A stretch of DNA of 64,000 bases from Acidobacteriota bacterium (lineage in GTDB: Bacteria; Acidobacteriota; Thermoanaerobaculia; Gp7-AA8), in the NCBI GenBank assembly GCA_021781455.1, contig JAJXWV010000035.1, positions 1 to 64,000 of the forward strand, written 5' to 3'. This document shows, one piece after another, positions 9,475 to 63,885 of the stretch. Position 1 is the first letter of the stretch. Every line of letters begins with the position of its first letter. The position numbers and the translations under genes were made by a program. The notes below the pieces were generated by a model. It had not been told where the DNA came from. It was given only the letters and a program-made list of their open reading frames with translations, and made no database searches.

Positions 9475-9566
9475 GGTTGCGCGGTTGCGCAGTTCCGCGG
9501 TTGCGAGGTGCACGGTGGCGGCATTCCGCGCCTGCTCACACCGCGCAACCGCGTAACCCCGTAACC
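9475..9566. repeat. Octamer-unit inverted repeat element (GCGGTTNC type)
   Basis: The left arm (9475-9508) is a run of GGTTGCGC/GGTTCCGC-like 8-mers and the right arm (9541-9566) holds the opposed form (CGCAACCG, CGTAACCC). The arms could fold into a long imperfect hairpin. The right arm ends four bases from the stop of the response regulator gene on the minus strand. The rest of the gap back to the tRNA (9386-9474) shows nothing distinctive. Confidence 0.75.
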
Positions 9567-9570
9567 GCCC

Positions 9571-10917
9571 TCAAGGCCTCTCCACTCGAATCCCGTACGC
9601 ATGGAGTTTCCGATAGAGGTTCGAACGCTCCACGCCTAACGCGTCGGCGGCGCGGCTGACGTTGCCGGCGAACTCGCGCAGGCGGCCGAGGATGTACTGC
9701 TTCTCGAACTCGTCGCGCGCCTCCTTGAGAGTGAGCTTCGCATCGACGACCGGCGGTGCGGAGGCGCGCGTGTCCAGCTGGACGTCCTCCGACTCGATCG
9801 TCTCGCCTGGGAGAAGGATGGCCAGGCGTTCGATGACGTTCCGCAGCTCGCGAACGTTGCCCGGCCAGTGGTAGATCTTCAGTTTCGCCGCGGCTCCCGC
9901 GGAGAGCTTCTTCCTCGGCGCGCCGGTCTCGGCGGAGAAGCGGCGGAGAAAGTGCTCGGCCAGGAGCACGACGTCGTTGCCGCGCGCCCGCAGCGGCGGA
10001 ACGTCGATGGGAATGACGTTGAGGCGATAGTAGAGGTCACTGCGGAAATTCGCGGCGTTGATCTCCGACTCCAGGTCCTTGTTCGTGGCGGCGATGACGC
10101 GCGCGTCGACCCTGATGGTCTGCTGCCCGCCCACCCGCTGAAACGCCTGCTCCTGCAGGACACGCAGCACCTTGGCCTGCGTCTTGAGGCTCATGTCGCC
10201 GATCTCGTCGAGGAACAGCGTTCCTCCGTCGGCCAGCTCGAACTTCCCCTTGCGGTCGTCGATGGCCCCGGTGAAGGCGCCCTTGCGATGCCCGAACAGC
10301 TCCGACTCGATCAGCTCCTCGGGAATGGCGGCGCAGTTGACGTCGATGAACTGCTGCTCGGCGCGCGGAGAGAGCCGGTGCAGCGTGCGGGCCACGATCT
10401 CCTTGCCGCTCCCGTTCTCGCCGGTGATGAGAACGCGGGTGGCCGTCGGCGCGGCACTGCGGATCTGCTGCTCGAGCTTCTTCATCGGCTCGCTGTCGCC
10501 GATGAGCAGCTCCTCGAGCGTGAAGTGCCGGCGCAGGTCGCGCACCTGCTCGCGAAGCTTGCGGTCGGCCAGAGCATGGTTGACGGTGAGGAGAACCCGT
10601 TCCAGCGAGAGCGGCTTCTCCAGGAAGTCGTAGGCACCGAGGCGCGTGGCGCGGACGGCCGTGTCGACGTTGCCGTGGCCCGAGATCACGATCACCGGAG
10701 GTGCGCCGGCGCCGTTGAGCCGCTCCAGCACGCTCAGGCCGTCGATGCCGGGCAGCCAGAGGTCGAGGATGGCCAGGTCGAACTCGTCGCGCGCGAACTG
10801 AGCGATTGCCTCTTCGCCCGATTCGCAGAGAACGGGCTTGTGACCTTCGTCCTCGAGGATGCCGGCGAGTGTCGTGCGGATCGAGGCTTCGTCGTCGATG
10901 ATCAGGATTTTTGCCAT
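9571..10917 (-). CDS. NtrX-like sigma-54-dependent response regulator
   Basis: A 448-residue bacterial enhancer-binding protein. The receiver domain has phospho-acceptor D52 and K101. The AAA+ domain has Walker A GENGSGKE (166-173) and a canonical GAFTGA loop (213-218) that contacts sigma-54. The Fis-type helix-turn-helix ends the protein ([20 protein letters not shown]). The start ATG at 10917 begins the classic [10 protein letters not shown]; an in-frame upstream extension runs through a repeat and is rejected. The NtrY-like kinase gene lies directly upstream, separated by a heptamer hairpin, so the two form a two-component pair. What it senses (nitrogen status or envelope) cannot be told from sequence. 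Confidence 0.93.
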
Positions 10918-10921
10918 ATCA

Positions 10922-10977
10922 GCGTGCGGCGTGCAGCGGGAAGCGGGCAGGGGAGACGGGCCTGCCCGCTGCCCGCT
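10922..10977. repeat. Heptamer-unit hairpin (GCGGGNA type) between ntrX- and ntrY-like genes
   Basis: The left arm reads GCGTGCG, GCGTGCA, GCGGGAA, GCGGGCA and the right arm repeats TGCCCGC. Both step by seven bases. The element fills the whole gap between the kinase stop (one base away) and the response regulator start (four bases away), so it would lie in the message between two co-transcribed genes. Confidence 0.75.
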
Positions 10978-10978
10978 C

Positions 10979-13096
10979 CTATGCCGGTAACTCGATCTCG
11001 AACCTCGTCCCCCTGGGGTGATTGTCATGGACCGAGATCTGGCCGTCGTGGTCGCGAACGATGCGATGGACGATGGCCAGTCCCAGGCCGGTTCCGCGCT
11101 GCTTGGTCGAAAAGTACGGCAGGAACAGGCGCTCCTTGTCGACATCGGGAACGCCGCGGCCCGGATCGGCGACTTCGATGAAGACGCGCTGCTGGGCGCG
11201 CCGCGCGCTCACCTTGATCTCTCCGGCATCGGTCGCTTCGACGGCGTTCTTCAGCAGGTTGCCCACAGCGCGCCGGATCTGCTCGGGATCCATCAGCAGG
11301 GAGATCTCCGGATCGGCGTCGACGCTGACGGTGACGCCGGACTTGACGCCGCTGTAGAGACTGGCGGCCTGCTGCAGCGTATCGGCCAGAGGGGCGTGTC
11401 GCACGTGGACCGCCGGCATGCGGGCGAATCGCGAGAACTCGTCCACCATCCGTTTGAGCTGGCTGACCTCGGCGACGATGGTGCGGCAACCTTCCTCGAT
11501 GGCGGCGTCATGGCGCCCGAATTTCCTGGCGATGCGCTCGGCGGACAACTGGATGGGAGTGAGCGGGTTCTTGATCTCGTGGGCGATGCGCCGGGCGGCC
11601 TCGTTCCAGGCGGCGAGCTTCTGCGCCTGCACGAGCTGCGTGGAGTCTTCGAGGGCCAGAACCCAGCCGCGGGCGTCGCCGCTGCCGAGGCGGGCCATGG
11701 AGATCTCGAGGTAACGCAGCTCTCCGCTGCGAATGAGCGAGACCTCGCGCGGCCTGGCGCGCCGGCTGGTGGTCAGCTCCCGGATCGCCTCGCCCAAGGG
11801 GGCGAGGTCGCCCGAAAGGATCTCGCGGAAGTCGCTCTGCAGCGGCGGAGGAGTGTTGAGATCGAGCATCTGCAGCGCGGCGCGGTTGATGCTCAACAGC
11901 TGGTAATCCTCGTTGAGGGCGATGATGCCGGTGGCCACGCTGTCGAGCACGGTGAACATGAAGGCGCGCTCTCCGTCGAGGCGGCGGTTCGTGTCCGTGA
12001 GCGCCAGCCGCTGCTGAGCGATCTGCGTCGACATCTCATTGAACGACTCGATCAGTCCCCCCACCTCGTCGGTGGCGGCCACCTCGACGCGGTGCCCGTA
12101 TCCTCCTTCCGCGAGGGTGGCGGTCGCCTCGGCCAGAGCCTTGATCGGAACGGTGATCCGCCGGGACGCGTAGATCGCCGTCCAGAGCGTGCCGAACAGG
12201 ATCGCCAGCGTCACGGCCATGAACAGCGAGGTCTGCGAAGCCTTCAGAGTCTGTCGCTGCGAGTCGAGCTGCTGAAACCGGTCGTTGGCGATGATCGACT
12301 GGTCGATCATGCGGCTGACCGTGTTCGGCAGGAAAACGCCGCCGATCGCCGTGTACGGACCAGTCCCGATGCGCATGCCGCTGCGGATCCAGTTCCCGCT
12401 GGCGCCGACGTCGATCTTGACCGAGCTCCCCTTGGCCAGCACTTCGTCGAAGAATCGCTGCGGTGGTTCGGAGATCTCCTGGATCGGCGCGCGAGGGTCG
12501 GCGATGACCTTGACCAGCGCTCCGGAGCGGTAGATGCCGACCATGCTCACGTTGTGGAAATCGCGGACGTGGAGGAGGACCGAGTCCATCCGCGACGCGT
12601 CGGCGATGTCGGGACTCGCGGCGATCTCGCGGGCTGCGCTCATGGCCACCGCCGCGGACTGGTCCTGAGCCATCTGGGCGATGGATTCGCTGTTCTGCAG
12701 GATCGTGCGCACCGGCGTGTTGAACCAGCGGTCGATGGAGACCCGGAGCAGGTCGTCGGCCACGACGAACAGCAGGATCAGCGGGAGCAGCGAGGTGGCC
12801 ACATAGGTCAGGACGAGCTTCGTCCGGAATCGCGAGCCGATGATCCCGCGCTGCCGCTCCAGGACCAGCTTCACGATGCCGCGGAGCAGCACGAACAGGA
12901 TTCCGACGATCAGCAGGACGATGATGTTCGAGAGAACGAACAGCAGGGTCTGGCTGGTCAGTGCTTCCGGCGAGAGATCTTTCGCCCGCTGAACGACGTA
13001 GTAGACCAGGCTCGTCGACGCCAGGATGAGCAGCGGAAACGTGATCAGGACGCGCGGGTCCTTGCGATAGCGGAGAATCAGGTCGCGGGCGGTCAT
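10979..13096 (-). CDS. NtrY-like sensor histidine kinase
   Basis: A 705-residue membrane kinase. Two early hydrophobic hairpins (from LITFPLLILASTSLVYY) and a third around TYVATSLLPLILLFVV precede a periplasmic sensor region. Another membrane segment (SLFMAVTLAILFGTLW), a HAMP domain (ITVPIKALAEAT), a PAS domain (FTVLDSVATGIIALN), HisKA with the phospho-accepting His in RRIAHEIKNPLTPI, and an HATPase domain (GLGLAIVHRIV) follow. This order matches the NtrY family. It should phosphorylate the NtrX-like regulator encoded just downstream. Its start overlaps the DUF4390 stop by four bases, and DUF4390-NtrY-NtrX is a known gene order. Confidence 0.93.
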   Translation of the reverse strand: MTARDLILRYRKDPRVLITFPLLILASTSLVYYVVQRAKDLSPEALTSQTLLFVLSNIIVLLIVGILFVLLRGIVKLVLERQRGIIGSRFRTKLVLTYVATSLLPLILLFVVADDLLRVSIDRWFNTPVRTILQNSESIAQMAQDQSAAVAMSAAREIAASPDIADASRMDSVLLHVRDFHNVSMVGIYRSGALVKVIADPRAPIQEISEPPQRFFDEVLAKGSSVKIDVGASGNWIRSGMRIGTGPYTAIGGVFLPNTVSRMIDQSIIANDRFQQLDSQRQTLKASQTSLFMAVTLAILFGTLWTAIYASRRITVPIKALAEATATLAEGGYGHRVEVAATDEVGGLIESFNEMSTQIAQQRLALTDTNRRLDGERAFMFTVLDSVATGIIALNEDYQLLSINRAALQMLDLNTPPPLQSDFREILSGDLAPLGEAIRELTTSRRARPREVSLIRSGELRYLEISMARLGSGDARGWVLALEDSTQLVQAQKLAAWNEAARRIAHEIKNPLTPIQLSAERIARKFGRHDAAIEEGCRTIVAEVSQLKRMVDEFSRFARMPAVHVRHAPLADTLQQAASLYSGVKSGVTVSVDADPEISLLMDPEQIRRAVGNLLKNAVEATDAGEIKVSARRAQQRVFIEVADPGRGVPDVDKERLFLPYFSTKQRGTGLGLAIVHRIVRDHDGQISVHDNHPRGTRFEIELPA

Positions 13097-13641
13097 GGCT
13101 TCGGCTCAGGTGGTGAGGCCACGCGCACCGAGCGCCAGTGCGTGGAGATCTGCCACGGAACCACGTAGAGCAGGAAGGCGCGCTCGAAGTCCGCCTTGGC
13201 CCGCACTTTCAGCTTGTACGGCCGCTGCTTGCCGATCTCGAACAGGTTCGGCTCGTCGATCATGGTCATGTGCTTCTCGAGCATGTCGAGATCCGTGAAC
13301 GTCTCGGACTGCACCAGCTTGCGGTCGCGGCGATAGTTGAGCAGGTACTCGCGGGTCACCGAGTTGAACGTGGCGATGACCTCGATTCTCGAGCGGGCGA
13401 TTCCCTCGTCGAACCAGTTCGGCCGGTCGCGGTAGATCTCGACGACGTAGGTGAAGCTCGTCGGCAGGCCGCTCTGAAGGGCCTGCACGGTCTTCTCATT
13501 GCGAAAAGCGTCGACCAGATCAAAGCGGACGCTGACGCGTCCATCGACGGCGATCGCGGTGAGATTCTGGATGCGCGGCTGCGCCGGCGCGGGGCCTGCG
13601 ACCAGGGCGAAAAGGAGCGAGAAGACGAACGAAAGCTTCAC
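13093..13641 (-). CDS. DUF4390-type exported protein
   Basis: A 182-residue protein with a clear signal peptide (LSFVFSLLFALVAGPAPA) and a beta-rich body containing VRFDLVDAFRNE and YVVEIYRDRPNW. The whole resembles DUF4390 proteins, which occur next to NtrY kinases. Start is GTG; it is the first gene of the three-gene operon with the NtrY/NtrX-like pair (ATGA overlap). Acting in the periplasm it could modulate the kinase's sensor domain, but that is inference from context only. Confidence 0.8.
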   Translation of the reverse strand: MKLSFVFSLLFALVAGPAPAQPRIQNLTAIAVDGRVSVRFDLVDAFRNEKTVQALQSGLPTSFTYVVEIYRDRPNWFDEGIARSRIEVIATFNSVTREYLLNYRRDRKLVQSETFTDLDMLEKHMTMIDEPNLFEIGKQRPYKLKVRAKADFERAFLLYVVPWQISTHWRSVRVASPPEPKP

Positions 13642-13678
13642 GGTGTGGCTTTTTTACCACACTCGCGAACAGCTTGTC

Positions 13679-14563: not shown

Positions 14564-14745
14564 TTCACCTGTTATGGAGCAGGGGCGGTGCCACGAACGG
14601 CTGAGTGCGCTAAAACGGATCTAAGCCGTTCTCAATCAACGAGTTGAACCGGTGCGCACGAATTTGCCAAAAGCGTATTTGTGTAGTCGCGCGGCTTCAG
14701 GTCTGTGGTCGCAGAGCCACACTCGTTTGGACGAACGCCCCGTCG

Positions 14746-15219: not shown

Positions 15220-15236
15220 GGGCGGGCGATTGTACT

Positions 15237-15352
15237 GGGGTTACGCGGTTACGCGGTTACGAGGCTGTTGCCTGCCACCGCCGTGAATGCTCGCATCACA
15301 ATCACGCAATCGCACAACCGATGACCTCGTGACCTCGCAACCTGGCGACCCG
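15237..15352. repeat. Octamer-unit inverted repeat (TTACGCGG type) between smpB and accD
   Basis: The left arm (15237-15264) is TTACGCGG, TTACGCGG, TTACGAGG; the right arm (about 15299-15352) is degenerate but ends TGACCTCG, TGACCTCG, CAACCTGG. It occupies most of the divergent smpB-accD intergenic region, so both promoters would have to sit in or beside it. Confidence 0.7.
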
Positions 15353-15415
15353 TTTCTCATCTCGTCTTCCCCTCCCCTCGCCACCCGTTATCCGCTGGTG
15401 TAAAGTCCCCGACCC

Positions 15416-16261: not shown

Positions 16262-16265
16262 GATG

Positions 16266-16331
16266 CCGTGTAGGACAGGCTTTCCAGCCTGTCCCCCCAT
16301 CCGGACAGGCTGGAAAGCCTGTCCTACACGG
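16266..16331. repeat. Perfect 29-bp inverted repeat after accD
   Basis: Arms 16266-16294 and 16303-16331 are exact reverse complements (29 bp, 8-base loop); each arm itself contains GGACAGGC and GCCTGTCC around TTTCCA. It begins four bases after the accD stop codon. There is no T-run, so it is not a standard intrinsic terminator, though it could block exonucleases or attenuate read-through into folC. Confidence 0.9.
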
Positions 16332-16387: not shown

Positions 16388-16417
16388 CTCAGGACTCAGG
16401 ACTCAGGACTCAGGACT
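16388..16417. repeat. Single-arm CTGAGTC heptamer array before folC
   Basis: Four tandem copies of AGGACTC (CTGAGTC family, opposite orientation) directly precede the preferred folC start. Each unit carries AGGA, so one lies at about nine bases from the TTG start and can serve as its ribosome site. Confidence 0.75.
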
Positions 16418-19797: not shown

Positions 19798-19899
19798 AGT
19801 GCTGAGTACTGAGTGCTGAGTACTGAGTGCGTGTCCCCGACGCGGTGACTCAGTACTCAGTACTCAGCACTCAGTACTCAGCACTCAGTACTCAGCACT
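19798..19899. repeat. CTGAGTR heptamer hairpin
   Basis: The left arm (19798-19831) alternates CTGAGTA and CTGAGTG; the right arm (19846-19899) is the opposed array, ACTCAGT and ACTCAGC, also largely alternating. About 30 bp can pair around a 14-base GC-rich loop. It begins three bases after the preceding stop codon. Confidence 0.9.
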
Positions 19900-19985: not shown

Positions 19986-20795
19986 ATGCCGCTGCACGAA
20001 AAGAAAGTCGTCGCGGTACTCCCGGCTTACAACGCTGAGAAGACGCTCAAGGCGACTTACGACGACATCCCCAAGGACTGGGTCGACGAGATCCTCCTTG
20101 TCGACGACTGTTCGCGCGATCGCACCGTCGAGCTCTCCCGTGAGCTCGGCATCGTGACCATCGTGCACGGGAAGAACCGCGGCTACGGCGGAAACCAGAA
20201 GACCTGTTACCGGACAGCCATGGACCAGATGGGAGCCGACATCATGGTCATGGTCCATCCCGACCACCAGTACGATCCCACCATCATCCCCGAGCTCGTC
20301 AAGCCGCTGCTCAGGGGCGACTGCGACGCCGTCTTCGGCTCGCGAATGCTCGGGGGCCGTCCCATCGAAGGCGGCATGCCGAAGTGGAAGTACTTCGCAA
20401 ACCTCTTCCTGACGATGGTGGAGAACGCCACCTTCTACGTCTTCCTGTCGGAATACCACTCCGGGTTCCGCGCCTATTCACGGCGCTTTCTCGAGTCGAT
20501 CGACTTCGAAGCGAACTCGGACGATTTCGTGTTCGACACCGAGATCATCGCCCAGGGCGTGTCGAGGCGCATGCTCATCCGGGAAGTGCCGATCCAGACG
20601 CGCTACTTCGACGAAGCCTCCCAGATCGGATTCTGGCGCTCCGTCCGTTACGGCCTGGCCATCCTGAAGACGATGGTGCTGTACAAACTGCACAAGAAGC
20701 ACATCTACTCGCACCGGATCTTCCGCGAGCCCACCCCCGCCGTCAAAGCGCAGAGCGCAGAGCGCGGCCCGCGGGCTGCTTCCGCCCAGCGCTGA
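19986..20795 (+). CDS. GT2-family glycosyltransferase (dolichyl-phosphate-mannose-synthase-like)
   Basis: A 269-residue GT-A transferase likely moving a sugar from a nucleotide donor to a polyprenyl phosphate at the membrane. It shows VLPAYNAEKTLKATYDDIP, ILLVDDCSRDRT (donor-binding Asp), VHPDHQYDP in the DXD position, and SEYHSGFRAYSRR. No C-terminal membrane domain is present, unlike GtrB. ATG at 19986 is chosen because the family starts there. The last 16 or so residues (KAQSAERGP onward) are encoded by the left arm of a GCAGAGC heptamer repeat, so the native C-terminus may have been altered. The YfhO-like gene follows and may use the lipid-linked sugar. Confidence 0.88.
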   Translation: MPLHEKKVVAVLPAYNAEKTLKATYDDIPKDWVDEILLVDDCSRDRTVELSRELGIVTIVHGKNRGYGGNQKTCYRTAMDQMGADIMVMVHPDHQYDPTIIPELVKPLLRGDCDAVFGSRMLGGRPIEGGMPKWKYFANLFLTMVENATFYVFLSEYHSGFRAYSRRFLESIDFEANSDDFVFDTEIIAQGVSRRMLIREVPIQTRYFDEASQIGFWRSVRYGLAILKTMVLYKLHKKHIYSHRIFREPTPAVKAQSAERGPRAASAQR

Positions 20796-20871
20796 ACGCC
20801 ATCAACAAATCCGTCTGAGGCGCATGCAGGGCCGTCCCGCCCTCATCTGCCCTCTGCCCTCTGCGCTCTCC
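20748..20871. repeat. GCAGAGN heptamer inverted repeat overlapping a gene end
   Basis: The left arm (20748-20767; GCGCAGA GCGCAGA GCGCGG) lies within the last codons of the glycosyltransferase gene. The right arm (20846-20871) is TGCCCTC, TGCCCTC, TGCGCTC. The spacer is about 80 bases. Confidence 0.75.
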
Positions 20872-25666: not shown

Positions 25667-25739
25667 CAGATCGCAGAGGGCAGATCGCAGGACACTGCAC
25701 GATCCAACCCCGCGATCTGGGATCTGCCCTCTGCGATCT
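25667..25739. repeat. GCAGAGN-type heptamer hairpin
   Basis: The left arm (25667-25690: CAGATCGCAGAGGGCAGATC) and the right arm (25712-25739, ending CTGCCCTCTGCGATCT) are inverted copies. The right arm ends three bases from the stop codon of the minus-strand zinc-ribbon gene; the left arm follows the pilin terminator directly. Confidence 0.85.
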
Positions 25740-33070: not shown

Positions 33071-33198
33071 AGTGCTGAGTACTGAGTGCTGAGTACTGAG
33101 TGCTGAGTACTGAGTGCTTGTTACCGAGAAGTGAGAACGGACTCAGGATTTCGTGCAGACCTGAAAACTCAGTACTCAGCACTCAGTACACAGCACTT
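33071..33198. repeat. CTGAGTR heptamer hairpin in a divergent promoter region
   Basis: The left arm (33071-33118) is strictly alternating CTGAGTA/CTGAGTG (a 14-bp super-unit); the right arm (33167-33198) is the opposed form with one substitution. The roughly 50-base spacer and the 70 bases after the right arm are the only room for the promoters of the two divergent genes. Confidence 0.9.
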
Positions 33199-33268
33199 CG
33201 CAGATGCAACTGGAAAAACACACTGCCTCGCTTGCCAAAGGCATCGATCTCGCAAAAACGGGAGGACC

Positions 33269-34318
33269 ATGCCGGGGAAAGGCGTCCGACGCCGTGGATA
33301 TCTCGATCTTCACGGCATCCGACGCAACGGATCGAAGGAAGACGGGGTCAGCTATTCATTCAGCGACGGTTCGCCGGTCAATGACGAGAAAACGCTCGTG
33401 CGCATCGCCAGGCTCCGCATCCCGCCGGCATGGCGCGACGTGCGGATCGCGCGCAGTGACAGCGCACCGCTCCAGGCCATCGGTACCGACAAGAAAGGGC
33501 GCTGCCAGTATCGGTATCACGAACGCTTCCGCAGGCAGCGCGATCACGCGAAGTTTCTGCGCGTCGTCGAATTCGGGGAAGCCCTGCCCAAGCTGCGCCG
33601 GCACGTCCGTGCCGATCTGCGCGGCAAGGGCGTCGACCGCGAGCGCGTGCTTGCGGCCATGGTCCGCCTCATCGACCAGGGATTCTTCCGCATCGGAAAC
33701 GACAAGAGCGCCCGATCGGAATCCACATACGGCCTCTCGACCATCCTCGGCCGCCACGTGAACGTACGAGGCGAGGTCCTCGTCTTCGATTATGTCGGCA
33801 AGTGGCGCAAGAAGCAGAGCCGCGCCGTGAGAGACGCCGAAGTCGCGGCTCTCGTCGAGCAACTCAAGCGCATGCGCGGACCGGAGTTGTTCCGCTTCTT
33901 CGCGGGAGAGCGCCCGGTGAACATCCGCGACCGGCACGTCAACGACTACATTCAATCGATCATCGGCGGTCAATTCACGGCGAAGGATTTTCGCACCTGG
34001 GCCGGCACGCTGCTCTGCTCGACCGCCCTGGCCATGCAGGGCCAGTCGGAAAGCAAGGCCGAAAGGAAGCGGCGGATCAAGAGGGCCATTGCCGCGACTG
34101 CCGAAGAGCTCGGCAACACGCCCGCCGTGTGCCGCTCCTCGTACGTCTGCCCGCGCCTGCTCGACGACTATCTGGGCGGCCGTCCCTTCGAAACCCTGCG
34201 CAAGCCGCGTCGCGGCAGCCCGGTGGTGAAGGTGGGGCTGTCGGTGGAGGAACGCGCGCTCCTGAAGTTTCTCCGCGAAACGATCGCTGATCGCCGCCGC
34301 GCCTCCCGCGCCGCCTGA
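33269..34318 (+). CDS. DNA topoisomerase IB
   Basis: A 349-residue eukaryote-like type IB topoisomerase (poxvirus/bacterial group) that relaxes supercoils through a 3'-phosphotyrosine. It contains LRIPPAWRDVRIA, KKGRCQYRYHERFRR, LIDQGFFRIGNDKSA, GLSTILGRHV, and a late KDFRTWAGTLLC with the catalytic Arg/His region; the active Tyr lies in SSYVCPRLLDDYL. The ATG at 33269 has GGAGGA before it. The strand context is solitary. Confidence 0.92.
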   Translation: MPGKGVRRRGYLDLHGIRRNGSKEDGVSYSFSDGSPVNDEKTLVRIARLRIPPAWRDVRIARSDSAPLQAIGTDKKGRCQYRYHERFRRQRDHAKFLRVVEFGEALPKLRRHVRADLRGKGVDRERVLAAMVRLIDQGFFRIGNDKSARSESTYGLSTILGRHVNVRGEVLVFDYVGKWRKKQSRAVRDAEVAALVEQLKRMRGPELFRFFAGERPVNIRDRHVNDYIQSIIGGQFTAKDFRTWAGTLLCSTALAMQGQSESKAERKRRIKRAIAATAEELGNTPAVCRSSYVCPRLLDDYLGGRPFETLRKPRRGSPVVKVGLSVEERALLKFLRETIADRRRASRAA

Positions 34319-34324: not shown

Positions 34325-34379
34325 CGAGTGCCGAGTGCAGACTCAGGACCCAGGACTCAGGACTCAGGACTCAGGACTC
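34325..34379. repeat. CTGAGTC heptamer inverted repeat
   Basis: A short left arm CCGAGTG, CCGAGTG (34325-34337) faces a right arm of five AGGACTC-type units (34341-34379). It lies between the convergent topoisomerase and beta-barrel genes, 6 and 9 bases from their stop codons. Confidence 0.85.
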
Positions 34380-37344: not shown

Positions 37345-37403
37345 AAGCGGGTGGCGGGTAGCGCGTAGGAGACCGAATCTCCCGCCCGCTACACGCTACA
37401 CGT
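37345..37403. repeat. GCGGGTR-like heptamer hairpin
   Basis: The left arm (AAGCGGG TGGCGGG TAGCGCG) and the right arm (CCGCCCG CTACACG CTACACG) are opposed 7-mers. It sits between two minus-strand genes, eight bases after the stop of one and 13 bases before the start of the next. Confidence 0.75.
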
Positions 37404-39949: not shown

Positions 39950-39960
39950 CAGTGGGGGCA

Positions 39961-40114
39961 GCGGGTAGCGGGTAGCGGGTAGCGGGTGGCGGGTAGCGGG
40001 TAGCGGGTAGCGGGTAGCGGGTGGCGGGTAGCGGGTGGCGGGTGGCGGGTGGCGGGTAGCGGGTGGCGGGTGGCGGGTGGCGGGTAGCGGGTAGCGGGTA
40101 GCGGGTAGCGGGCG
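39961..40114. repeat. 22-unit GCGGGTR heptamer array, single arm
   Basis: Twenty-one perfect GCGGGTR units and one GCGGGCG stand head to tail without any spacer. The seventh base is only A or G: AAAGAAAAGA then GGGAGGGAAAA in order. No opposed arm is present. The array begins 11 bases after the dprA stop. The following 60 bases to the next gene show nothing. Confidence 0.97.
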
Positions 40115-40952: not shown

Positions 40953-41318
40953 ATGGCCATCGAGCTAGTCAAGGATTTTCGATTCGAAGCGGCCCACTGG
41001 CTGCCCAACGTGCCGGAAGGGCACAAGTGCCGGCGCATTCATGGCCACTCGTTCCGCGGCGAAGTGGCGGTACGCGGCGAGGTCGACCCGGTCACCGGCT
41101 GGGTCATCGACTTCGCCGATCTGAAGCGAGCCGTCGACCCGGTCGTCAATCGCCTCGATCACTATCTCCTCAACGACATCGAGGGACTGGAGAACCCGAC
41201 CTCCGAGATCGTGGTGATGTGGATCTGGAATCAGCTCGCACCGGCAGTCCGTGGGCTTTACCGGGTGACGCTCGAAGAAACCTGCACGTCGCGCTGCCAC
41301 TACTACGGGAAGTCCTGA
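40953..41318 (+). CDS. queD: 6-carboxy-5,6,7,8-tetrahydropterin synthase
   Basis: A 121-residue zinc enzyme making the queuosine/7-deazaguanine precursor from dihydroneopterin triphosphate. Zinc ligands and catalytic Cys appear in FRFEAAHWL and CRRIHGHSF (CxxxHGH), and the second half has LDHYLLNDI and NPTSEIV. The last codon and stop (TCC TGA) already lie in a CTGAGTC heptamer repeat. No other que genes are in the window. Confidence 0.95.
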   Translation: MAIELVKDFRFEAAHWLPNVPEGHKCRRIHGHSFRGEVAVRGEVDPVTGWVIDFADLKRAVDPVVNRLDHYLLNDIEGLENPTSEIVVMWIWNQLAPAVRGLYRVTLEETCTSRCHYYGKS

Positions 41319-41439
41319 GTCCTGAGTGCTGAGTCCTGAGTGGCTTCGATCTTGACTCCTTCCATGCATTCGGGACTACCGGCAAACTCAGGACTCAGGA
41401 CTCAGGACTCAGGACTCGGGACTCAGGACTCGGGACTCG
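41311..41439. repeat. CTGAGTC heptamer hairpin overlapping the queD stop
   Basis: The left arm (41311-41341) has units CTGAGTC, CTGAGTG, CTGAGTC; the right arm (41386-41439) has seven or eight opposed units, some GGGACTC. The queD stop codon TGA is part of the first unit. The spacer is 44 bases. Confidence 0.88.
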
Positions 41440-42926: not shown

Positions 42927-43035
42927 GACGGACCGCAGACGGCAGACCACGGACGACGGTCGGCTCGAGCCAGGAGTTCGGGCCATGGCTTCGCCACCTG
43001 CGCTCTGCGCCCTGCCCTCTGCAGTCCGGGGTCTG
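42927..43035. repeat. Heptamer inverted repeat (GCAGACN / GCCCTCT type) between tldD and tldE
   Basis: The left arm is GACGGAC CGCAGAC GGCAGAC CACGGAC, directly abutting the tldD stop. The right arm is GCGCTCT GCGCCCT GCCCTCT GCAGTCC, ending a few bases before the tldE start. Both step by seven; the match is imperfect. Confidence 0.65.
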
Positions 43036-43039: not shown

Positions 43040-44413
43040 ATGCGATCGGAAACCGACTCATTCGCCATCCTGTCGCGCGCCCTCGATGCGGCCGGTACCG
43101 ACGAGGCGGACGCCGTCTTCATGTCCACGGACCAGAACATCTCCCGCTTCGCGAACTCGAACCTTCATCAGAACATGTCGGAGATCAGCGCGGAGCTGAC
43201 CCTTCGCGTCTTCGTGAACGGCTGCACCGGTGTGGCATCGACGACTTCCTTCGATGACGACGAGATCGCCCGCGCGGCGGCTCTGGCGCGCGACGCGGCG
43301 CGGCACTCGAATCCGCTGCCGGGGTTCACTGGTCTCTACCGCGACGCTCCAGCTGCTCCGGTCCTGCAGACGTTCGACGCCGCCACTGCGCACCTCTCGG
43401 CTGCGGAGAAGGCCATCATGTTGCGGACGATGTTCGATCGCGGCCGGGACCGCGGTGTCGCCTTCGCCGGCTCGTTCACCACGAGCATGAGCTCCGTCGC
43501 CTGCGGCAACAGTCACGGCATCCGCCGCTTCGCCGAGACGACCTTCGCCGACGCAACGGTCATCGCTCTGGGACGGGAGCACTCCGGCTACGCCACCGCC
43601 TGCTCTCGACGCATCGGCGATGTCGACATCGCAGCCCTGGGCGATGAGGCTACGACCCGCGCCACTCTCCGCGCCGAACGCGTCGAGGATCTCGAGCCGG
43701 GCGCCTTCGACGTCGTCCTCGAGCCTCCCGCGCTGGCGGAGGTCTTCGAATGGCTGGGCATGATCGCCCTGACCGGCCAGTCGTTCGAGGACGGCTCTTC
43801 GCTGCTCGTCGACCATCTCGGACAGCGCATCGTTGGCGAGAACTTCACGCTGGCCGACGATGCCGTCGACGAGTCCTTTCTGCCGTTCCCGTTCGATCTC
43901 GAGGGCTACCCGAAGCAGCGCGTGGCCATGATCGAGAACGGTGTGGCCCGCACGCCGATGGTCGACAAGGTCTACGCCGACCGCTTGCACTTCGCGCCGA
44001 ACGGGGGCCTGTGGCACCTCGGATCCTCCGAGCACGGCACGACCTTTCACACCTCGATGGCCGGCGGTGACAGCTCGCGCGAGGAGATGATCCGCTCGAC
44101 GAAGCTCGGCATCTGGGTGACGCGGTTCAATTACGTGAATGGACTGCTCGAGCCCAGGACCGCGCTGATGACAGGCACCACCCGCGACGGTACCTTCCTG
44201 ATTCGCGACGGCGAGGTGGCGGCTCGCCTGCCGAACCTCCGCTGGACGCAGTCGATGGTCGAGGCGTTCTCGAACATCGAGGCGCTCAGCCGCGAGCGCC
44301 GCCGCGTCGGCACCTGGTACAACGCTTTCGGCGGGACGATCGCGCCGGTGGCGAAGATCCGCGGCTGGCATTTCACGGGAAAACAGACGGGCGGTGGAAG
44401 TGCTGAGTCCTGA
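43040..44413 (+). CDS. tldE: TldE/PmbA-type protease partner subunit
   Basis: A 457-residue non-catalytic homologue of TldD, lacking the HExxxH site. Family features include ISAELTLRVFVNGCTGVAS, GYATACSRRIGDVD, and a C-terminal MTGTTRDGTFLIRDGEV and NIEALSRERR. The last three codons (AES) and TGA stop fall in the left arm of a heptamer hairpin. The heterodimer forms the active protease with tldD just upstream. Confidence 0.93.
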   Translation: MRSETDSFAILSRALDAAGTDEADAVFMSTDQNISRFANSNLHQNMSEISAELTLRVFVNGCTGVASTTSFDDDEIARAAALARDAARHSNPLPGFTGLYRDAPAAPVLQTFDAATAHLSAAEKAIMLRTMFDRGRDRGVAFAGSFTTSMSSVACGNSHGIRRFAETTFADATVIALGREHSGYATACSRRIGDVDIAALGDEATTRATLRAERVEDLEPGAFDVVLEPPALAEVFEWLGMIALTGQSFEDGSSLLVDHLGQRIVGENFTLADDAVDESFLPFPFDLEGYPKQRVAMIENGVARTPMVDKVYADRLHFAPNGGLWHLGSSEHGTTFHTSMAGGDSSREEMIRSTKLGIWVTRFNYVNGLLEPRTALMTGTTRDGTFLIRDGEVAARLPNLRWTQSMVEAFSNIEALSRERRRVGTWYNAFGGTIAPVAKIRGWHFTGKQTGGGSAES

Positions 44414-44474
44414 GTCCTGAACGTCGGGCCTCGATTCTCAGCACTCAGCACTCAGCACTCAGCACTCAGGACTC
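44399..44474. repeat. CTGAGTN heptamer hairpin at the tldE end
   Basis: The left arm is AGTGCTGAGTCCTGAGTCCT (44399-44418) and includes the tldE stop codon. The right arm (44436-44474) is four or five CTCAGCA units then AGGACTC. The loop is about 16 bases. Confidence 0.88.
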
Positions 44475-45435: not shown

Positions 45436-45504
45436 GGCTGTTGGCTCCTGGCTCTTGGGACACCGAGTCCCCTAAGAACCAAGAGCTAACAGCCAAGAGC
45501 CAGG
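45436..45504. repeat. GGCTNTT heptamer hairpin between permease genes
   Basis: The left arm is GGCTGTT GGCTCCT GGCTCTT (45436-45459) and the right arm AAGAACC AAGAGCT AACAGCC AAGAGCC (about 45472-45502). The unit is seven bases. The right edge supplies AGGA before the next gene's ATG. Confidence 0.88.
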
Positions 45505-48198: not shown

Positions 48199-48287
48199 CC
48201 GGGTTGCGCGGTTCCGCGGTTGCGCGGTTCCGCGTTCGAAGTTTCGACGCTGCGATCACCGCGCAACCTCGAAACCCACGTCACCCA
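48199..48287. repeat. Octamer-unit inverted repeat (GCGGTTNC type)
   Basis: The left arm is GGTTGCGC GGTTCCGC GGTTGCGC GGTTCCGC (48199-48232). The degenerate right arm (48258-48287) holds CGCAACCT and opposed forms. It lies between convergent genes, four and three bases from their stop codons. Confidence 0.85.
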
Positions 48288-49335: not shown

Positions 49336-49425
49336 GTGAGTGCTGAGTGCTGAGTCCTGAGTCCTGAGTCCTGAGTCCTGAGCTAATACGGGAAGGCGAC
49401 TCAGGACTCAGGACTCAGGACCCAG
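49336..49425. repeat. CTGAGTN heptamer hairpin
   Basis: The left arm runs CTGAGTG, CTGAGTC x4 (49336-49383), the right arm AGGACTC x3 then AGGACCC (49398-49425). The loop is about 14 bases. It separates the Rieske gene from the AmrS gene. Confidence 0.9.
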
Positions 49426-49444
49426 AAGAGCCTAACACCAGGGC

Positions 49445-52838: not shown

Positions 52839-52859
52839 GTGCGGAGTCTATCGGACGAA

Positions 52860-52884
52860 GAGCGCAGAGGGCAGAGCGCAGAGG
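52860..52884. repeat. GCAGAGN heptamer array upstream of the exchanger
   Basis: The left arm GCGCAGA GGGCAGA GCGCAGA is clear. A degenerate opposed arm (CCTGCCTGCGCTC) lies near 52905-52918. The element sits in the divergent gap of the exchanger and the hydratase gene. Confidence 0.7.
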
Positions 52885-57357: not shown

Positions 57358-57385
57358 TGTGAAGGTGTCCTGCGGGAACCTTTCG

Positions 57386-57553: not shown

Positions 57554-57586
57554 GGGTGTTCCCTTCATTCGTCGGGCCACCCCAGG

Positions 57587-59289: not shown

Positions 59290-59291
59290 TG

Positions 59292-59368
59292 AAGTCCTGA
59301 GTCCTGAGTCCTGAGTCCTGAGTCCTGAGTCCTGAGTCCCGGTCTCTCAGGACTCAGCACTCAGCACT
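59292..59368. repeat. CTGAGTC heptamer hairpin between two minus-strand genes
   Basis: The left arm (59292-59339) is seven CTGAGTC units, the right arm (59346-59368) AGGACTC, AGCACTC, AGCACT. The stop codon of the following small gene (CTA on the plus strand at 59367) overlaps the arm end and the start of the activator gene is two bases from the other end; the whole intergenic region is the hairpin. Confidence 0.92.
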
Positions 59369-59717
59369 AACTTTTTCCTCTCGCCTTCCTGCACTCTCCC
59401 AGCAGGAAGTCGCAATTCCACTCGTCGTAAAACGCGCGGGACATCGAGTAGATTCTGATGAAGTGCGTTTCGGCCTGATCGTAGCGGCCCATCTTCATCT
59501 CGGTACGGGCCAGAAAATAGAGCGCATGGATGGTCACCGGATCGGCCTCGTCGCGTTCGACAATGGCGCGAAAGTCCGCCTCGGCCTCCGGAAAATTCCG
59601 CACCTGATACGCGCAGAGCGCCTTCGAATAGTCGTCCGCGCCGCCGCAGGTCGACGGCGGTGCGGCCAGTGCGGCGCCGGCGCCAAGCAGCGCAATCAGC
59701 AATGCAATCCGTGGCAT
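59367..59717 (-). CDS. Small exported TPR-like protein
   Basis: A 116-residue protein with a signal peptide (IALLIALLGAGAALAAPP) then a Cys-containing helical region with ADDYSKALCAYQVRNFPEAE, FRAIVERDEADPVTIHALYF and MGRYDQAETHFIRIYSM, reading as two tetratricopeptide-like repeats. Two further Cys (ECRKARGKS and WNCDF) may form disulfides. It is upstream of the sigma-54 activator gene. Function unknown. Confidence 0.7.
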   Translation of the reverse strand: MPRIALLIALLGAGAALAAPPSTCGGADDYSKALCAYQVRNFPEAEADFRAIVERDEADPVTIHALYFLARTEMKMGRYDQAETHFIRIYSMSRAFYDEWNCDFLLGECRKARGKS

Positions 59718-59791
59718 AGTGGACCAGCTCTCGTGGAAAAGAGTACCGCAGTCGGAGCACAGCCACGGAACTGCGAACACCAGGGGGCGCG

Positions 59792-60550
59792 ATGCGATTG
59801 AGGCTCTCGATCCTGGGCGGCGGCCGGGCCGCATGGGCGTACGGGTCGGCCTGGAGGCGAATCGGCGCGCCGATCGCAGGGATCTGGCTTCGTCACGGAT
59901 CGCAGAGCGAGCTTCCGCACCTGCTCGATGCGCCCCGAGCGACCATCGCTGAACTGGCGCGCGAATCGGACCTCGTCCTCATCGCCGTGTCGGACCGAGC
60001 CATCGGCGAGACGGCCGAGCAGATCCCGGAAACGAAGGCCATTGTCTTCCACGCCAGCGGCGCGCTGCCGTCCGTCCGTGGAGGCTTCTCACTGCATCCG
60101 CTGCGCGTCCTTCCCCCGGTCGGCGAGCCGTCGGACCTGCAGGAGGCGCTGCTCGTGTTCGAAGGTGCTCACCGTGAGATCGCGGCGGAGATCGCGTCCG
60201 CGATCGGAGCCCGCTTCGTGGAAATCAGCGCGGAGATGAAGCCGCTGTATCACGCCGGGGCTGTGTTCGGCGCGAACTATGTCGCCGCCATTCTGGAGAT
60301 CTCACGCGAGTTGATGACGCGTGCCGGCATCGGTGAAGCCCGCGACGACATCGCTGCACTGGCCGTTTCCGCGGTGGAAAACTGGCGCACACATACTGGG
60401 GCGCAGGCCTTTACCGGACCGGCCGCCCGCGGCGATCGCGAGGTCGTCGAACGGCACCTGGCGGCATTGGCGAGCGAGCCGCAAGTAGCGGAAATCTACG
60501 GAGTTCTGGCCGCGCGGATCGCTCGCGCCATTCTTGCCCGCTCTGAGTAG
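59792..60550 (+). CDS. DUF2520-type Rossmann protein
   Basis: A 252-residue NADP-binding oxidoreductase-like protein. The N-terminus SILGGGRAAWAYGSAWRRIG has a dinucleotide-binding loop, SDLVLIAVSDRAIGETAEQI follows, and a helical C-terminal domain has MKPLYHAGAVFGANYVAAIL. DUF2520 proteins resemble ketopantoate reductase or pyrroline-carboxylate reductase and often lie near panB/panC; that context is not seen here. Confidence 0.82.
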   Translation: MRLRLSILGGGRAAWAYGSAWRRIGAPIAGIWLRHGSQSELPHLLDAPRATIAELARESDLVLIAVSDRAIGETAEQIPETKAIVFHASGALPSVRGGFSLHPLRVLPPVGEPSDLQEALLVFEGAHREIAAEIASAIGARFVEISAEMKPLYHAGAVFGANYVAAILEISRELMTRAGIGEARDDIAALAVSAVENWRTHTGAQAFTGPAARGDREVVERHLAALASEPQVAEIYGVLAARIARAILARSE

Positions 60551-60592
60551 CGGGTGCTACCATCGAGCCCCGCTTTGCGCCGGAGCCCTTAA

Positions 60593-61999
60593 ATGGTCTT
60601 CTTCAATTACGCCACCATGCAGATGGCAGCGAAGATCGTGTACTACGGTCCCGGTCTTTGCGGGAAGACCACGAATCTCCACTACATCTACACGAAGACC
60701 TCACCCCAGAGCCGCGGCGAAATGGTCAGCCTCGAGACAGAGACGGACCGGACCCTTTTCTTCGACCTCCTGCCCATCGACGTCGGCGTGATCGGCGGTT
60801 TCAAGACCCGCCTGCAGCTCTACACCGTTCCGGGCCAGGTCTTCTACAACACCACCCGCAAGCTCGTGCTCAAGGGTGTGGACGGCATCGTCTTCGTTGC
60901 CGACTCGCAGCGGGCCATGCTCGACGCAAACGTCGAGAGCTACGGGAACCTGCGCGAGAACCTCGCCGAGATCGGTCTGAACATCGACGAGATTCCGATG
61001 GTCCTGCAGCTCAACAAGCGCGATCTGCCGAACGTCGCCGAGCCCGACATGATCGTACGAGCCCTCGACCCCGAGCGCCGCTACGACGTCGTGGAGTCGA
61101 TCGCCGCGAACGGCAGCGGCGTCTTCGAGACGCTGAAGCTGATCTCGAAACTGACGCTGCGCACTTTGCGCCGGCGCATGACCGGTGAGGAGCCGGTCAA
61201 GGCGCCCCGCAAGCTCTCCGATATCGCCGCATTCCGCGTGAAAGAAGAACCGCGTGCGGCGGCGCCGCGAACCATGGCCGCGGCACCCATCGCCCCACCA
61301 GCCATCGGAGGTCCGGCCACGCTGAACGCCCCCACATTCACCGCCCCCGCGGCCTCGGCATCGACCGGAACACCGATGCGAAGCATGCCGGCAGTCGAAG
61401 AGATCGAGGAGCTCGAACCCTCGGAAGAAATCGCCGGCGAACCCGTCGAGGAAACGACGTTCACCGAGGTTCCCGATCTGGCCAGCGCGCCATCGGCCGA
61501 GGCACCGATCGAAGAAATCTCGACGGAGTACATCCCGCCCGCGCGGGAACCGATCCGGGAGGCTCCGGCGCCCTCCAGGCCTCAGCCGGTCGCCGTGGCT
61601 CCGGCCGTCGAGCCGGAGCCGGAAGTCGATTTCAGCCAGACGGAGAAACCCTTCAAGGCCACCCCCGAGGTGAAGCACGTCAAGGTGCGCTCGTCGGTCG
61701 ACATCATGGCCGAGCTGGAGGCCCTGCGGAAACGCGCCACGACTCAATCCGCCCCGAAGATCAAGAAAGAAGTACCCGCCGAGATCTCCATCCCCGCGCC
61801 GAAACCGAAACGCGACGCGCGCCACACCATTGTTCTGCAGGCTGATCCTGCCAATGTCCCACGGGCGAAATCCGTGAAAGTTACTGTATCCTTTGAAAAC
61901 GACGGTGAAGTCCTGGAGCAGCACGAGCAATCGGTCGAGCTCTCAGACACCGCCGACGTACGGTCACTTTCGTTAGACGTCAAAATCGCCCTTGAATAG
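60593..61999 (+). CDS. mglA: MglA-like small GTPase with long C-terminal extension
   Basis: The first 195 residues are a typical MglA polarity GTPase: Walker A GPGLCGKTTN (about 19-28), switch region QLYTVPGQVFYN, and NKRD near 143. Usual MglA proteins end there; this one has about 270 more residues, rich in Ala, Pro and Glu with a final segment FENDGEVLEQHEQSVELSD of predicted beta character. MglA-type proteins set cell poles and control pilus reversal. The start ATG at 60593 follows a short gap. A partner MglB is not seen. The extension is unusual and its role is open. Confidence 0.88.
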   Translation: MVFFNYATMQMAAKIVYYGPGLCGKTTNLHYIYTKTSPQSRGEMVSLETETDRTLFFDLLPIDVGVIGGFKTRLQLYTVPGQVFYNTTRKLVLKGVDGIVFVADSQRAMLDANVESYGNLRENLAEIGLNIDEIPMVLQLNKRDLPNVAEPDMIVRALDPERRYDVVESIAANGSGVFETLKLISKLTLRTLRRRMTGEEPVKAPRKLSDIAAFRVKEEPRAAAPRTMAAAPIAPPAIGGPATLNAPTFTAPAASASTGTPMRSMPAVEEIEELEPSEEIAGEPVEETTFTEVPDLASAPSAEAPIEEISTEYIPPAREPIREAPAPSRPQPVAVAPAVEPEPEVDFSQTEKPFKATPEVKHVKVRSSVDIMAELEALRKRATTQSAPKIKKEVPAEISIPAPKPKRDARHTIVLQADPANVPRAKSVKVTVSFENDGEVLEQHEQSVELSDTADVRSLSLDVKIALE

Positions 62000-62045
62000 A
62001 GCCTTTGGTCCCACAGCAGACCGAATCGTGACGGGAGGGAGTGCG

Positions 62046-63410
62046 ATGATCCACAGACGCCTGCTGCCTCTGCTGTTCCTCGTGTGCGCTGCCTGCGCAT
62101 CGACGACCGTCGCTCCCGCTCCCACACCGCTTCCCACCCCCTCCTTCGCACCCAGCCAGCCCGCGAAGGACGTTGCCGAGTTCCGCAAGGAGCTCGAAGA
62201 CGTCTACGCAAAGCTCGTGGCCAGCGACTCCAAACCGACGAACGCTCCCGGGGTCGACCTCGAAGCCGCCGCCTCCATTCCCATCCCCGATCACCGTTCC
62301 ATTCGCGGAGCGGTCAATCTCTTCAGCACACAGCTGAAGCCGAACGTGCAGTCGTACCTGACGCGCTCGGCGAAGTACAAAAAGATGATCGACAAGGCTC
62401 TTGCTGATGCCGGTGTGCCAAAGGCGCTGGCATACCTGCCGGTCATCGAGAGCGGCTATTCGTCGACCATGACTTCGCGTGCCGGAGCACGGGGTATGTG
62501 GCAGTTCATGGGCGACACGGCACGCGAATACGGATTGCGGGTCGACTGGTGGGTCGACGAGCGCGCCGATCCCGAGCGCGCCACGCGCGCCGCGGCGCAG
62601 TACATCAAGGACCTTTACCGCGAGTTCAACGACTGGCCGCTGGCGCTGGCCGCGTACAACGCCGGCCCGGGTCGCGTCCGGCGCGCGCTGGCCGAAACGG
62701 GGGCATCGTCGTTCTGGGAGCTGTGCGACCAGGCCGCATTGCCGAAGGAAACCCGCGGGTACGTACCGACGTTCTACGCCACGCTGATCATCGCCGGCGA
62801 TCCCGCCACATACGGCTTCACGCTGGCCCCTCCCGAGAGCCAGGACATTCGGCGCGTCGAAGTCGAGGGTCCTCTCTCGCTCAAATACCTGGCGCGCGTG
62901 GCGAACCTCGACGAGGAAGTCGTGCGTGATCTCAACCCGGCTTACCGTCACGGCGTTCTTCCTCCGGGAACGTCGACCGTACGCCTGCCTGCGCCCGCAG
63001 CCGAGATCGTGGCCGCGCATGCCGCCGGTCTGAAGAACAACGACTCCGACATCGCCGTCTGCTCTTTCCGCATGCGCGAAGGAGACTCCCTGAAGCGCCT
63101 GGCCCGCGCCATCGGCACCAACGTGCAGACGATCCTGTCCATGAACGGCCTCACCTCGCCTTCACGCGTCGGGGAAGGCGATTCGCTGTACCTGCCTGTG
63201 CGCGCACGCGAGCTGGGTGCGCTGCTACGGCAGCCCGACATCTACTACGCCGTCAAGAAGGGCGACACGCTCTACTCAATTGCCAGGAAACACAGCCTCA
63301 CCGTCGAGGAGCTGCGCGACCTCAACGACCTCGGCCGCCGCCACAAGCTCCACCGCGGCGAGCGACTTCTGGTCAATCCGCCTCGCGGTCTGATCGCGGG
63401 TGGGATGTAA
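62046..63410 (+). CDS. mltD: Membrane-bound lytic murein transglycosylase D
   Basis: A 454-residue peptidoglycan lyase. It starts MIHRRLLPLLFLVCAACAST with a near-lipobox (CAAC), then has the SLT/GH23 domain with catalytic Glu in LAYLPVIESGYSS and GARGMWQFMGDTAREYG, and two LysM repeats (MREGDSLKRLARAIGTNVQT, KKGDTLYSIARKHSLTVEEL). GGAGGG lies before the ATG at 62046. It should cut glycan strands during cell growth or division. Confidence 0.93.
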   Translation: MIHRRLLPLLFLVCAACASTTVAPAPTPLPTPSFAPSQPAKDVAEFRKELEDVYAKLVASDSKPTNAPGVDLEAAASIPIPDHRSIRGAVNLFSTQLKPNVQSYLTRSAKYKKMIDKALADAGVPKALAYLPVIESGYSSTMTSRAGARGMWQFMGDTAREYGLRVDWWVDERADPERATRAAAQYIKDLYREFNDWPLALAAYNAGPGRVRRALAETGASSFWELCDQAALPKETRGYVPTFYATLIIAGDPATYGFTLAPPESQDIRRVEVEGPLSLKYLARVANLDEEVVRDLNPAYRHGVLPPGTSTVRLPAPAAEIVAAHAAGLKNNDSDIAVCSFRMREGDSLKRLARAIGTNVQTILSMNGLTSPSRVGEGDSLYLPVRARELGALLRQPDIYYAVKKGDTLYSIARKHSLTVEELRDLNDLGRRHKLHRGERLLVNPPRGLIAGGM

Positions 63411-63414
63411 GGAC

Positions 63415-63516
63415 GAATTGAAAATTGAAAATGGAAAATTGAAAAGCGTGCACGGGGCACAGGCGCTCAGCATGGTGCTTTCAATTTTCAATTCTCGATT
63501 TTCAATTTCCGATTCC
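63415..63516. repeat. AATTGAA heptamer hairpin
   Basis: The left arm is AATTGAA, AATTGAA, AATGGAA, AATTGAA (63415-63444), the right arm TTCAATT, TTCAATT, CTCGATT, TTCAATT (63478-63516). It is the only AT-rich stretch in this area and begins four bases after the mltD stop. The loop of about 33 bases has GC-rich host-like sequence. Confidence 0.92.
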
Positions 63517-63554
63517 GCCTTCCACCAGGAATCGTCATTGCACGCAAATTGACC

Positions 63555-63800
63555 ATGGCTCGGGGATTCGAAAGCAAGTCCGCACAGGATCAGCAGCTCG
63601 AGGCGCAGAACGCTCGTGCCGAGGGGAAGAAGGAAAAGATCGGCCGGGACGAAATGGAGCGCCGGAAGAAGCGGGAGAGCCTGGAGATGTCGCGCACGCG
63701 CATCAGCCGCGAGCTCGAAGCGACCACGAGCGAACGGCGACGCCAGCAGCTTCGGGCCGCGCTCGAGCACCTCGACGGCGAGCTGAAGAAGCTCGGATGA
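63555..63800 (+). CDS. Hypothetical charged coiled-coil protein
   Basis: An 81-residue product (MARGFESKSAQDQQLEAQNA...) of almost continuous charged helix (RRKKRESLEMSRTRISRELE), without hydrophobic or signal segments. ATG at 63555 is preferred to a TTG two codons upstream. It lies between two repeat elements and its stop is ten bases before the next arm. Function unknown. Confidence 0.6.
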   Translation: MARGFESKSAQDQQLEAQNARAEGKKEKIGRDEMERRKKRESLEMSRTRISRELEATTSERRRQQLRAALEHLDGELKKLG

Positions 63801-63810
63801 CCACCTCCTC

Positions 63811-63885
63811 CCGGTTGCGAGGTCACGAGGTTGCGAGGTCGCCAGTATCAACTTCAACCTCGAAACCTCGTGACCTCGTAACCGG
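63811..63885. repeat. Octamer-unit inverted repeat (TTGCGAGG type)
   Basis: The left arm is GGTTGCGA GGTCACGA GGTTGCGA GGTC, the right arm (63855-63885) AACCTCGA AACCTCGT GACCTCGT AACC. The stem would be near 30 bp around 14 bases. It lies in the ileS upstream region. Confidence 0.88.

Follow-up and report, generated by a model that had tools for sequence, protein, structure and literature searches.

What process fills the intergenic spacers of a bacterial genome with hairpins whose arms are tandem arrays of a short unit, in many unit families of seven or eight bases and one shape? The question is raised by a 64,000-nucleotide stretch (the window, by which we mean this whole stretch), which is part of a 104-kb contig of a 4.88-Mb genome in 90 contigs (G000) from a soil bacterium of the Acidobacteriota. 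Among named AccD relatives the nearest are gp7 AA10 (86%) and Centralia_MAG_134 (85%), both Acidobacteriota, in a search from which records very near the window's own were possibly excluded. An Rfam scan of the window returned one tRNA and nothing else.

Arrays of seven and eight bases

Tandem arrays in the window were counted at a score of at least 12, with third-order Markov copies (mean of 5) as the control. Period 7 gives 18 arrays and period 8 gives four, with 0 at both periods in the Markov copies, and none is found at periods 6, 9, 10, 11, or 13; periods 14 and 16 also score, being multiples of 7 and 8, and periods 3, 5, and 18 give one, one, and two. An 822,527-bp sample of the genome has 147 arrays of period 7, 50 of period 8, and at most 5 at any other period from 2 to 16. 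The larger sample of 1,309 kb (1.31 Mb, 27% of the genome), which is non-random in that five contigs were picked for CTGAGTN hits and 14 stretches for Y1 genes, has 195 arrays of period 7, 65 of period 8, and 6 of period 9, with 28 in the remainder of periods 2 to 16 together. The spread of unit lengths over 5 to 12 that the preliminary description had set against its own proposal of a common process is thus not seen, the lengths being sharp at 7 and 8. Inverted repeats number 205 in the 822,527-bp sample versus one in a single Markov-4 copy of it, and the 98 with periodic arms have periods of 7 (29 repeats), 14 (40, a doubled 7), 8 (25), and 9 (4), with none at the remaining periods within 4 to 15.

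The arrays are head-to-tail 7-bp units in intergenic position and so qualify as tandem heptamer repeats. The window has 20 short-unit loci (Table 1), with CTGAGTN at eight, octamers at four, GCAGANN at four, TAGCGGG at two, and AATTGAA and GGCTCTT at one each; the observation made in the preliminary description holds. Its claim that about 20 loci have one hairpin architecture stands for 16 with an opposed arm, two of which (15239 and 37346) are weak, and does not stand for the loci at 16388, 34341, 39960, and 52859, which lack any reverse-complement 9-mer at a distance of up to 300 bp and are single arrays.

Table 1. Short-unit loci of the window, with the state of the matching spacer in related genomes and RNA folding scores where available
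Position	Feature	Matching site in relatives	RNA fold z
9475..9568	Hairpin of octamer GGTTNCGC with arms at 9475-9505 and at 9540-9568		-4.05
15239..15350	Weak pair: octamer arm GGTTACGC at 15239-15261 and, opposed to it, a diverged octamer arm at 15324-15350	AGCGAGT in G001	
16388..16417	CTGAGTN array (ACTCAGN strand), single arm without opposed partner		
19798..19899	CTGAGTN hairpin, GAGA-type arms		-10.27
20747..20869	GCAGANN opposed arms 20747-20765 and 20846-20869	CTGAGTN in G001	
25667..25739	GCAGANN hairpin		
33071..33197	CTGAGTN hairpin, GAGA-type arms		
34341..34379	CTGAGTN array (ACTCAGN strand); faced by no more than a short, degenerate stretch of GAGTGCCGAGTGC		
37346..37399	TAGCGGG arm and weak opposed arm (no exact 9-mer partner)		
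39960..40112	TAGCGGG single array, ~22 units, without opposed arm	Period-9 hairpin in G001	
41311..41438	CTGAGTN hairpin		-8.51
42929..43026	Composite of a diverged arm (GACCNCN/GCAGANN) and an opposed GCAGANN arm; GCAGANN locus placed at 42931	Empty in G001, G002, and G007	
44399..44474	CTGAGTN hairpin	G001 has a GACCGC-type hairpin; G002 and G007 are both empty	
45436..45502	GGCTCTT hairpin		
48202..48276	Octamer GGTTNCGC hairpin		
49337..49427	CTGAGTN hairpin	G002 has CTGAGTN; longer spacers in G004 (3768 bp, with AGGTCAA arrays) and G013 (1422 bp, with a CTCGCCT array)	
52859..52882	Single array of GCAGANN	G002 has a CTGAGTN-type array	
59293..59368	CTGAGTN hairpin	G001 and G002 have the same family, G003 has a related AGGACTG array, and G007 is empty	
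63416..63508	AATTGAA hairpin	Not present in the G001 spacer	-3.89
63813..63883	Octamer GGTNNCGA hairpin		

Variants of this anatomy were also seen. A period-9 family (GATGGGACC-like) has the same opposed-arm shape (G000 C10:93356, C20:116, and C30:102032, and in G001 at the 39949 site), and there are nested or composite hairpins in which the arms of one family enclose the array of another (L229 1472-1605 and window 42929-43026). A topoisomerase IB gene is located at 33131-34315 of the window, between two CTGAGTN loci.

Polarity, phase, and arm variants

Eight unit families provide 154 opposed pairs (146 distinct loci), in all of which the same unit strand runs toward the loop. Neighboring arrays no more than 250 bp apart are arranged as FR in 154 cases, RF in 0, RR in 4, and FF in 3, in families that were chosen after the data were seen and of which two pairs overlap (8 loci). 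Whole-genome patterns of exact CTGAGTN units with loops of 5 to 35 bases were searched in 60 genomes including G000, and RF has 0 matches in all 60. FR has 346 matches (overlapping) in G000 and 169 in total in six relatives (G001, 102; G002, 15; G003, 31; G007, 14; G011, 6; and G013, 1). When the RF pattern is read backwards as a control, it has 18, 16, and 1 matches in G000, G001, and G007, which we do not count against polarity because reversal turns the pattern into an FR hairpin in which N = C. The single polarity counts for dispersal, since independent local origins would yield both FR and RF.

The ends of the arms are similarly constrained. CTGAGTN arms start with AGT or GAGT and finish with AGT at the loop, and of the 129 arms, 119 have their outer end and 110 their inner end in one of two adjacent phases, while 71 are 30 to 33 bp long. 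Octamer arms favor GGT at both ends, and end preferences in the remaining families are weaker yet clear, being mixed in the GGTNNCGA inner ends and in the small GACCNCN set. With the families taken together, four full units is the commonest count, seen in 144 of the 308 paired arms, and it is the mode in CTGAGTN (68 of 108), a unit without G-runs; TAGCGGG and GGCTCTT alone have a mode of three. Complementarity falls to about 0.25 immediately beyond the arms, which is chance level for CTGAGTN. A purine or G bias of the 5' arms was considered, with G exceeding C in 34 of 42 family entries (13/17, 16/18, and 5/7, in sets that share families), but we dropped this bias as a special feature because non-periodic hairpins lean likewise (133 to 80).

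The same arm variants recur at many loci. The first four N bases of CTGAGTN arms are GAGA in 43 of 109 and CCGC in 14 of 109, arm haplotype homozygosity is 0.193 versus 0.046 when shuffled (maximum of 0.058 in 2000 shuffles), and both arms are in one variant class in 51 of 54 pairs. Loops in G000 are mostly unrelated, and the 7-mers common to CTGAGTN loops (89, versus 76 on average and at most 101 after shuffling) are not significant. Three CTGAGTN elements on contig C27 do have related loops (pair scores of 40 and 27 versus no more than 24 in 25 shuffles); all lie within 27 kb, and local duplications could be an alternative source. Octamer loops scoring 42 were rejected as related loops, being merely further octamers.

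In a Geobacter genome (G060), one loop is common to three of the five heptamer hairpins seen, and RF is 0 there. Geobacter hairpins with GTGAATN arms have the one loop TTAAAGGCTNGAATTC at three loci (L075 754-830, L294 1491-1585, and G060 C50:5319), and make up a small, heptamer-armed dispersed element of a different phylum. Loops common to a few loci, in G000 and in Geobacter, support whole-element copying; the mostly unrelated loops of G000 count against it in its plain form, which predicts related loops. There is no sign of target-site duplication, as border direct repeats in seven families are no longer than in shuffled pairs.

Turnover between genomes

Orthologous spacers were identified by placing flanking genes with tblastn in six relatives (G001, G002, G003, G004, G007, and G013), and the tally is limited to spacers under 1 kb and arrays scoring at least 11. 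Counted as same family, other family, window only, relative only, and empty, the spacers are 2, 5, 2, 3, and 20 in G001 (32 spacers); 2, 1, 6, 0, and 19 in G002 (28 spacers); 1, 0, 7, 2, and 20 in G003 (30 spacers, the "same" case being AGGACTG, one base off the CTGAGTN family); 0, 0, 8, 1, and 18 in G007 (27 spacers); 0, 0, 2, 1, and 13 in G004 (16 spacers); and 0, 1, 1, 0, and 9 in G013 (11 spacers). G001 is occupied at seven of the nine sites occupied in the window versus three of the other 23 (one-sided Fisher p 0.001), a comparison that spacer length confounds. Orthologous spacers show hairpin gain, loss, or family replacement, and occupied sites tend to stay occupied, contradicting the view that there is only slow slippage at fixed sites, which the preliminary description had raised as the outcome adverse to its proposal. 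The relatives compared have diverged too far to show exact empty-site joins (the better G001 matches align at about 72-87% nucleotide identity), and no clean insertion was caught among them.

Related genomes without CTGAGTN carry other heptamers, as in G005, and G016 has a heptamer hairpin within the 100 kb sampled. Arrays of period 7 or 8 are absent from four of five sampled genomes (at least 40 kb) of other families of the class, and from the smaller samples; the genomes without them are G018, G020, G022, G025, G040, G046, and G049 (20-40 kb each). CTGAGTN FR hairpins are present in four of the 396 genomes of a phylum scan, the window's own included, and are rare outside its own family. Two distant Acidobacteriota of other families have CTGAGTN FR matches, G249 with 10 and G319 with one, and this recurrence suggests transfer or convergence of the unit sequence.

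Origin of the hairpins and likeness to known systems

With unit length, polarity, phase, recurrent arm variants, and turnover at orthologous spacers all directly observed, we favor on balance the reading that these are dispersed, non-autonomous, REPIN-like hairpin elements with array arms, spread by a polarity-specific DNA copying factor. Each element would have a variable loop between inverted arms whose sequence and phase are fixed, with about four 7-mer or 8-mer units per arm. A sequence- and polarity-specific factor acting on DNA would copy a family into new intergenic sites, probably as the whole element, and the loops would later drift faster than the arms. Slippage would afterwards alter the unit number at a locus, and families would rise and fall between genomes, leaving one site with different families in different species. 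We infer that the copying is transposition-like and that an enzyme is responsible; a single-strand HUH Y1-type mover is our first guess, because the hairpins and the absent target duplications fit, but none of the genes of this type is linked to the arrays. The preliminary description had proposed one generating process, and one polarity and fixed phases in eight families do argue for one kind of process, while a single enzyme is unsupported.

Local replication slippage at heptamers, followed by hairpin fold-back that copies one arm into the other, is an unlikely alternative on several counts. Slippage of unit number does occur, as seen in arm lengths that step by 7 (31, 38-39, 45, 52-53, 59, and 66), and heptamers are described as dominating long repeats in most prokaryotes (PMC4679880, PMC4692102). 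However, slippage predicts neither one polarity over 146 loci nor constant phases, nor does it predict identical 31-mer variants at many loci. Fold-back predicts that partner arms are closest to each other, which is untrue within the C class (likeness of 0.524 versus 0.584 for shuffled partners); in class A the likeness is 0.830 versus 0.806 shuffled, with 12% of shuffles as high, so same-class partners are no more alike than strangers and copying of one arm from the other is unsupported. We regard it as less probable again that these are RNA hairpins selected for terminating transcripts, for directing their processing, or for guarding 3' ends, for which any hairpin serves, so that families change at sites that remain occupied. 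RNA folding is indeed strong at five window loci (z of -3.6 to -10.3), sites are co-occupied despite family change, and elements in tandem spacers sit a median of 8 nt past the upstream stop and 13 nt ahead of the next start (94 pairs, home-made gene calls). By home-made gene calls, though, the 124 periodic hairpins occupy 94 tandem, 21 divergent, and 9 convergent spacers, whereas the 152 non-periodic hairpins occupy 95, 18, and 39. Convergent spacers, where terminators are needed, are thus under-used (9/124 versus 164/994 spacers; Fisher p 0.005), and the periodic hairpins are not simply terminators; folding selection also leaves the single polarity per family and the common variant patterns unexplained. 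Some stop codons fall within arrays (e.g., those of the ORFs ending at 41318 and 44413). RNA-level selection may act in addition to the favored dispersal of elements.

An ordinary REPIN system with odd arms, its REPs moved by resident RAYT transposases, would account for the REPIN anatomy and the lack of target duplication, and G000 has 14 matches to the Y1 profile (PF01797), but we judge it slightly more doubtful than RNA-level selection. The Y1 counts (G001, 7; G002, 1; G003, 2; G004, 8; G005, 15; G014, 9; and G016, 0) do not follow the arrays: G005 and G014 are without CTGAGTN, G002 has many, and G016 has its heptamer hairpin despite having no Y1 match. None of the 14 G000 Y1 loci has same-family arrays close by on both sides (with limited room on one side at C44, C49, and C4), the nearest array to any of these genes is 537 bp away, and arrays on both sides occur only at contigs C13 and C61, far off or of different unit length. 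Five of the genes (C87, C39, C49, C27, and C33) are bracketed by their own conventional REP palindromes and none is bracketed by heptamer arrays; seven of the 14 loci have no palindrome nearby or a lone one, so a cognate could be missing. REP palindromes are tagged GTAG or alike, and none was found within the arms, which are pure arrays ending where the array ends. With 14 G000 and 6 G001 loci inspected, several with ordinary REPs and none bracketed by arrays, we rejected a RAYT as the mover. Least probable of all, we believe, is telomerase-like addition, in which a templated enzyme would add units to the two 3' ends at a break before these are joined. Each arm runs unit-forward to the loop, as in fused telomeres, and the arms open and close on the same 2-3 bases (AGT, GGT, AG, and GG), fitting an A-B-A' template of the type by which DRT10 is described as producing tandem-repeat cDNA (PMC12632851). 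Against this, PF00078 reverse transcriptase was not detected in five array carriers (G002, G003, G004, G007, and G013; bins 87-97% complete), the sole match in G000 is an RT-Cas1 fusion (L257 5054-8401, 1115 aa, PF00078 and PF01867 in Pfam), the recurrent CCGC over four units would require a template of ~31 nt, and loops common to several loci argue for element copying. In these searches no Y1 transposase or reverse transcriptase, which the preliminary description had suggested might track the elements, was identified as the mover.

We note that the window itself has a REP palindrome pair (TGTAGGACAGGCTTTCCAGCCTGTCC and its inverse) at 16266-16331. These palindromes also stand on both sides of the Y1 gene located at G000 C39:7611-7847, and this gene is therefore the likely RAYT of the window pair.

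A broader speculation, to which we give as little weight as to RNA-level selection, is that of a cross-phylum mobile hairpin class (Acidobacteriota, Desulfobacterota, and, by published description, Xanthomonas), its arms minted in fixed phase from 7-8 nt units by a putative one-polarity templating enzyme, so that new families could arise at will under a constant architecture.

Opposed heptamer arrays are already known from Xanthomonas (PMC4692102) and heptamer-repeat stems from Nostoc (PMC4476775); the fixed phases, the polarity test, and family switching are added here, and for constant phases, a single polarity, and a switch of families alike we found no published account in mostly non-subscription literature. 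The bacterial heptamer excess has been ascribed to polymerase slippage, whereas these three features point to the dispersal of defined elements, for which they also offer simple tests. Period 7 dominates the long simple repeats of Mrazek et al. 2007 as it does here, but the account, as relayed in PMC4679880 and PMC4692102, is slippage of tandem repeats and not paired arms, with heptamers favored since about 7 nt contacts DNA polymerase.

The GGGAATC heptamers of Xanthomonas are described as intergenic arrays, most often of four units, with convergent close pairs (70 in Xcc and 75 in Xac) that have the G-rich unit inward and with few between divergent genes (PMC4692102). Intergenic arrays, opposed pairs, a unit pointing inward, the four-unit mode, and a low share between divergent genes are all found here too, but Xanthomonas is described with one G-rich family per genome, in contrast to the many families and octamers of G000. 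The four-unit mode is ascribed in that paper to quadruplexes; here it holds in CTGAGTN, which prefers four units without any G-runs and cannot form quadruplexes. Intergenic arrays of the heptamer GGGGA(C/T)T are described in Nostoc (PMC4692102), and the P6b stem of the Nostoc trnL intron has paired heptanucleotide motifs of two unrelated, interchangeable repeat classes, their origin given as unknown (PMC4476775); the paired 7-nt stem is like ours, although it is one intron locus in an RNA gene and is not dispersed. TAACTGA heptamers are abundant in Beggiatoaceae spacers and patchy across phyla, and differ in that the sets are direct rather than opposed, with 169 direct repeats and one indirect repeat reported (PMC4679880). 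Unlike DDE-transposase MITEs, the hairpins have no target-site duplication. REPs, the analogy drawn in the preliminary description, were taken there for single palindromes, which needs correcting, as REPINs are described as inverted REP pairs with a spacer (PMC3116915). Like REPINs, our hairpins have two conserved ends in inverted orientation, with a spacer between them that is less conserved, and are extragenic and present in many copies, but REPIN ends carry a RAYT-linked REP, whereas the ends here are 7- or 8-mer arrays with no linked RAYT. If a mover is found, it will be a second way, besides RAYT, by which bacteria fill their spacers with hairpins.
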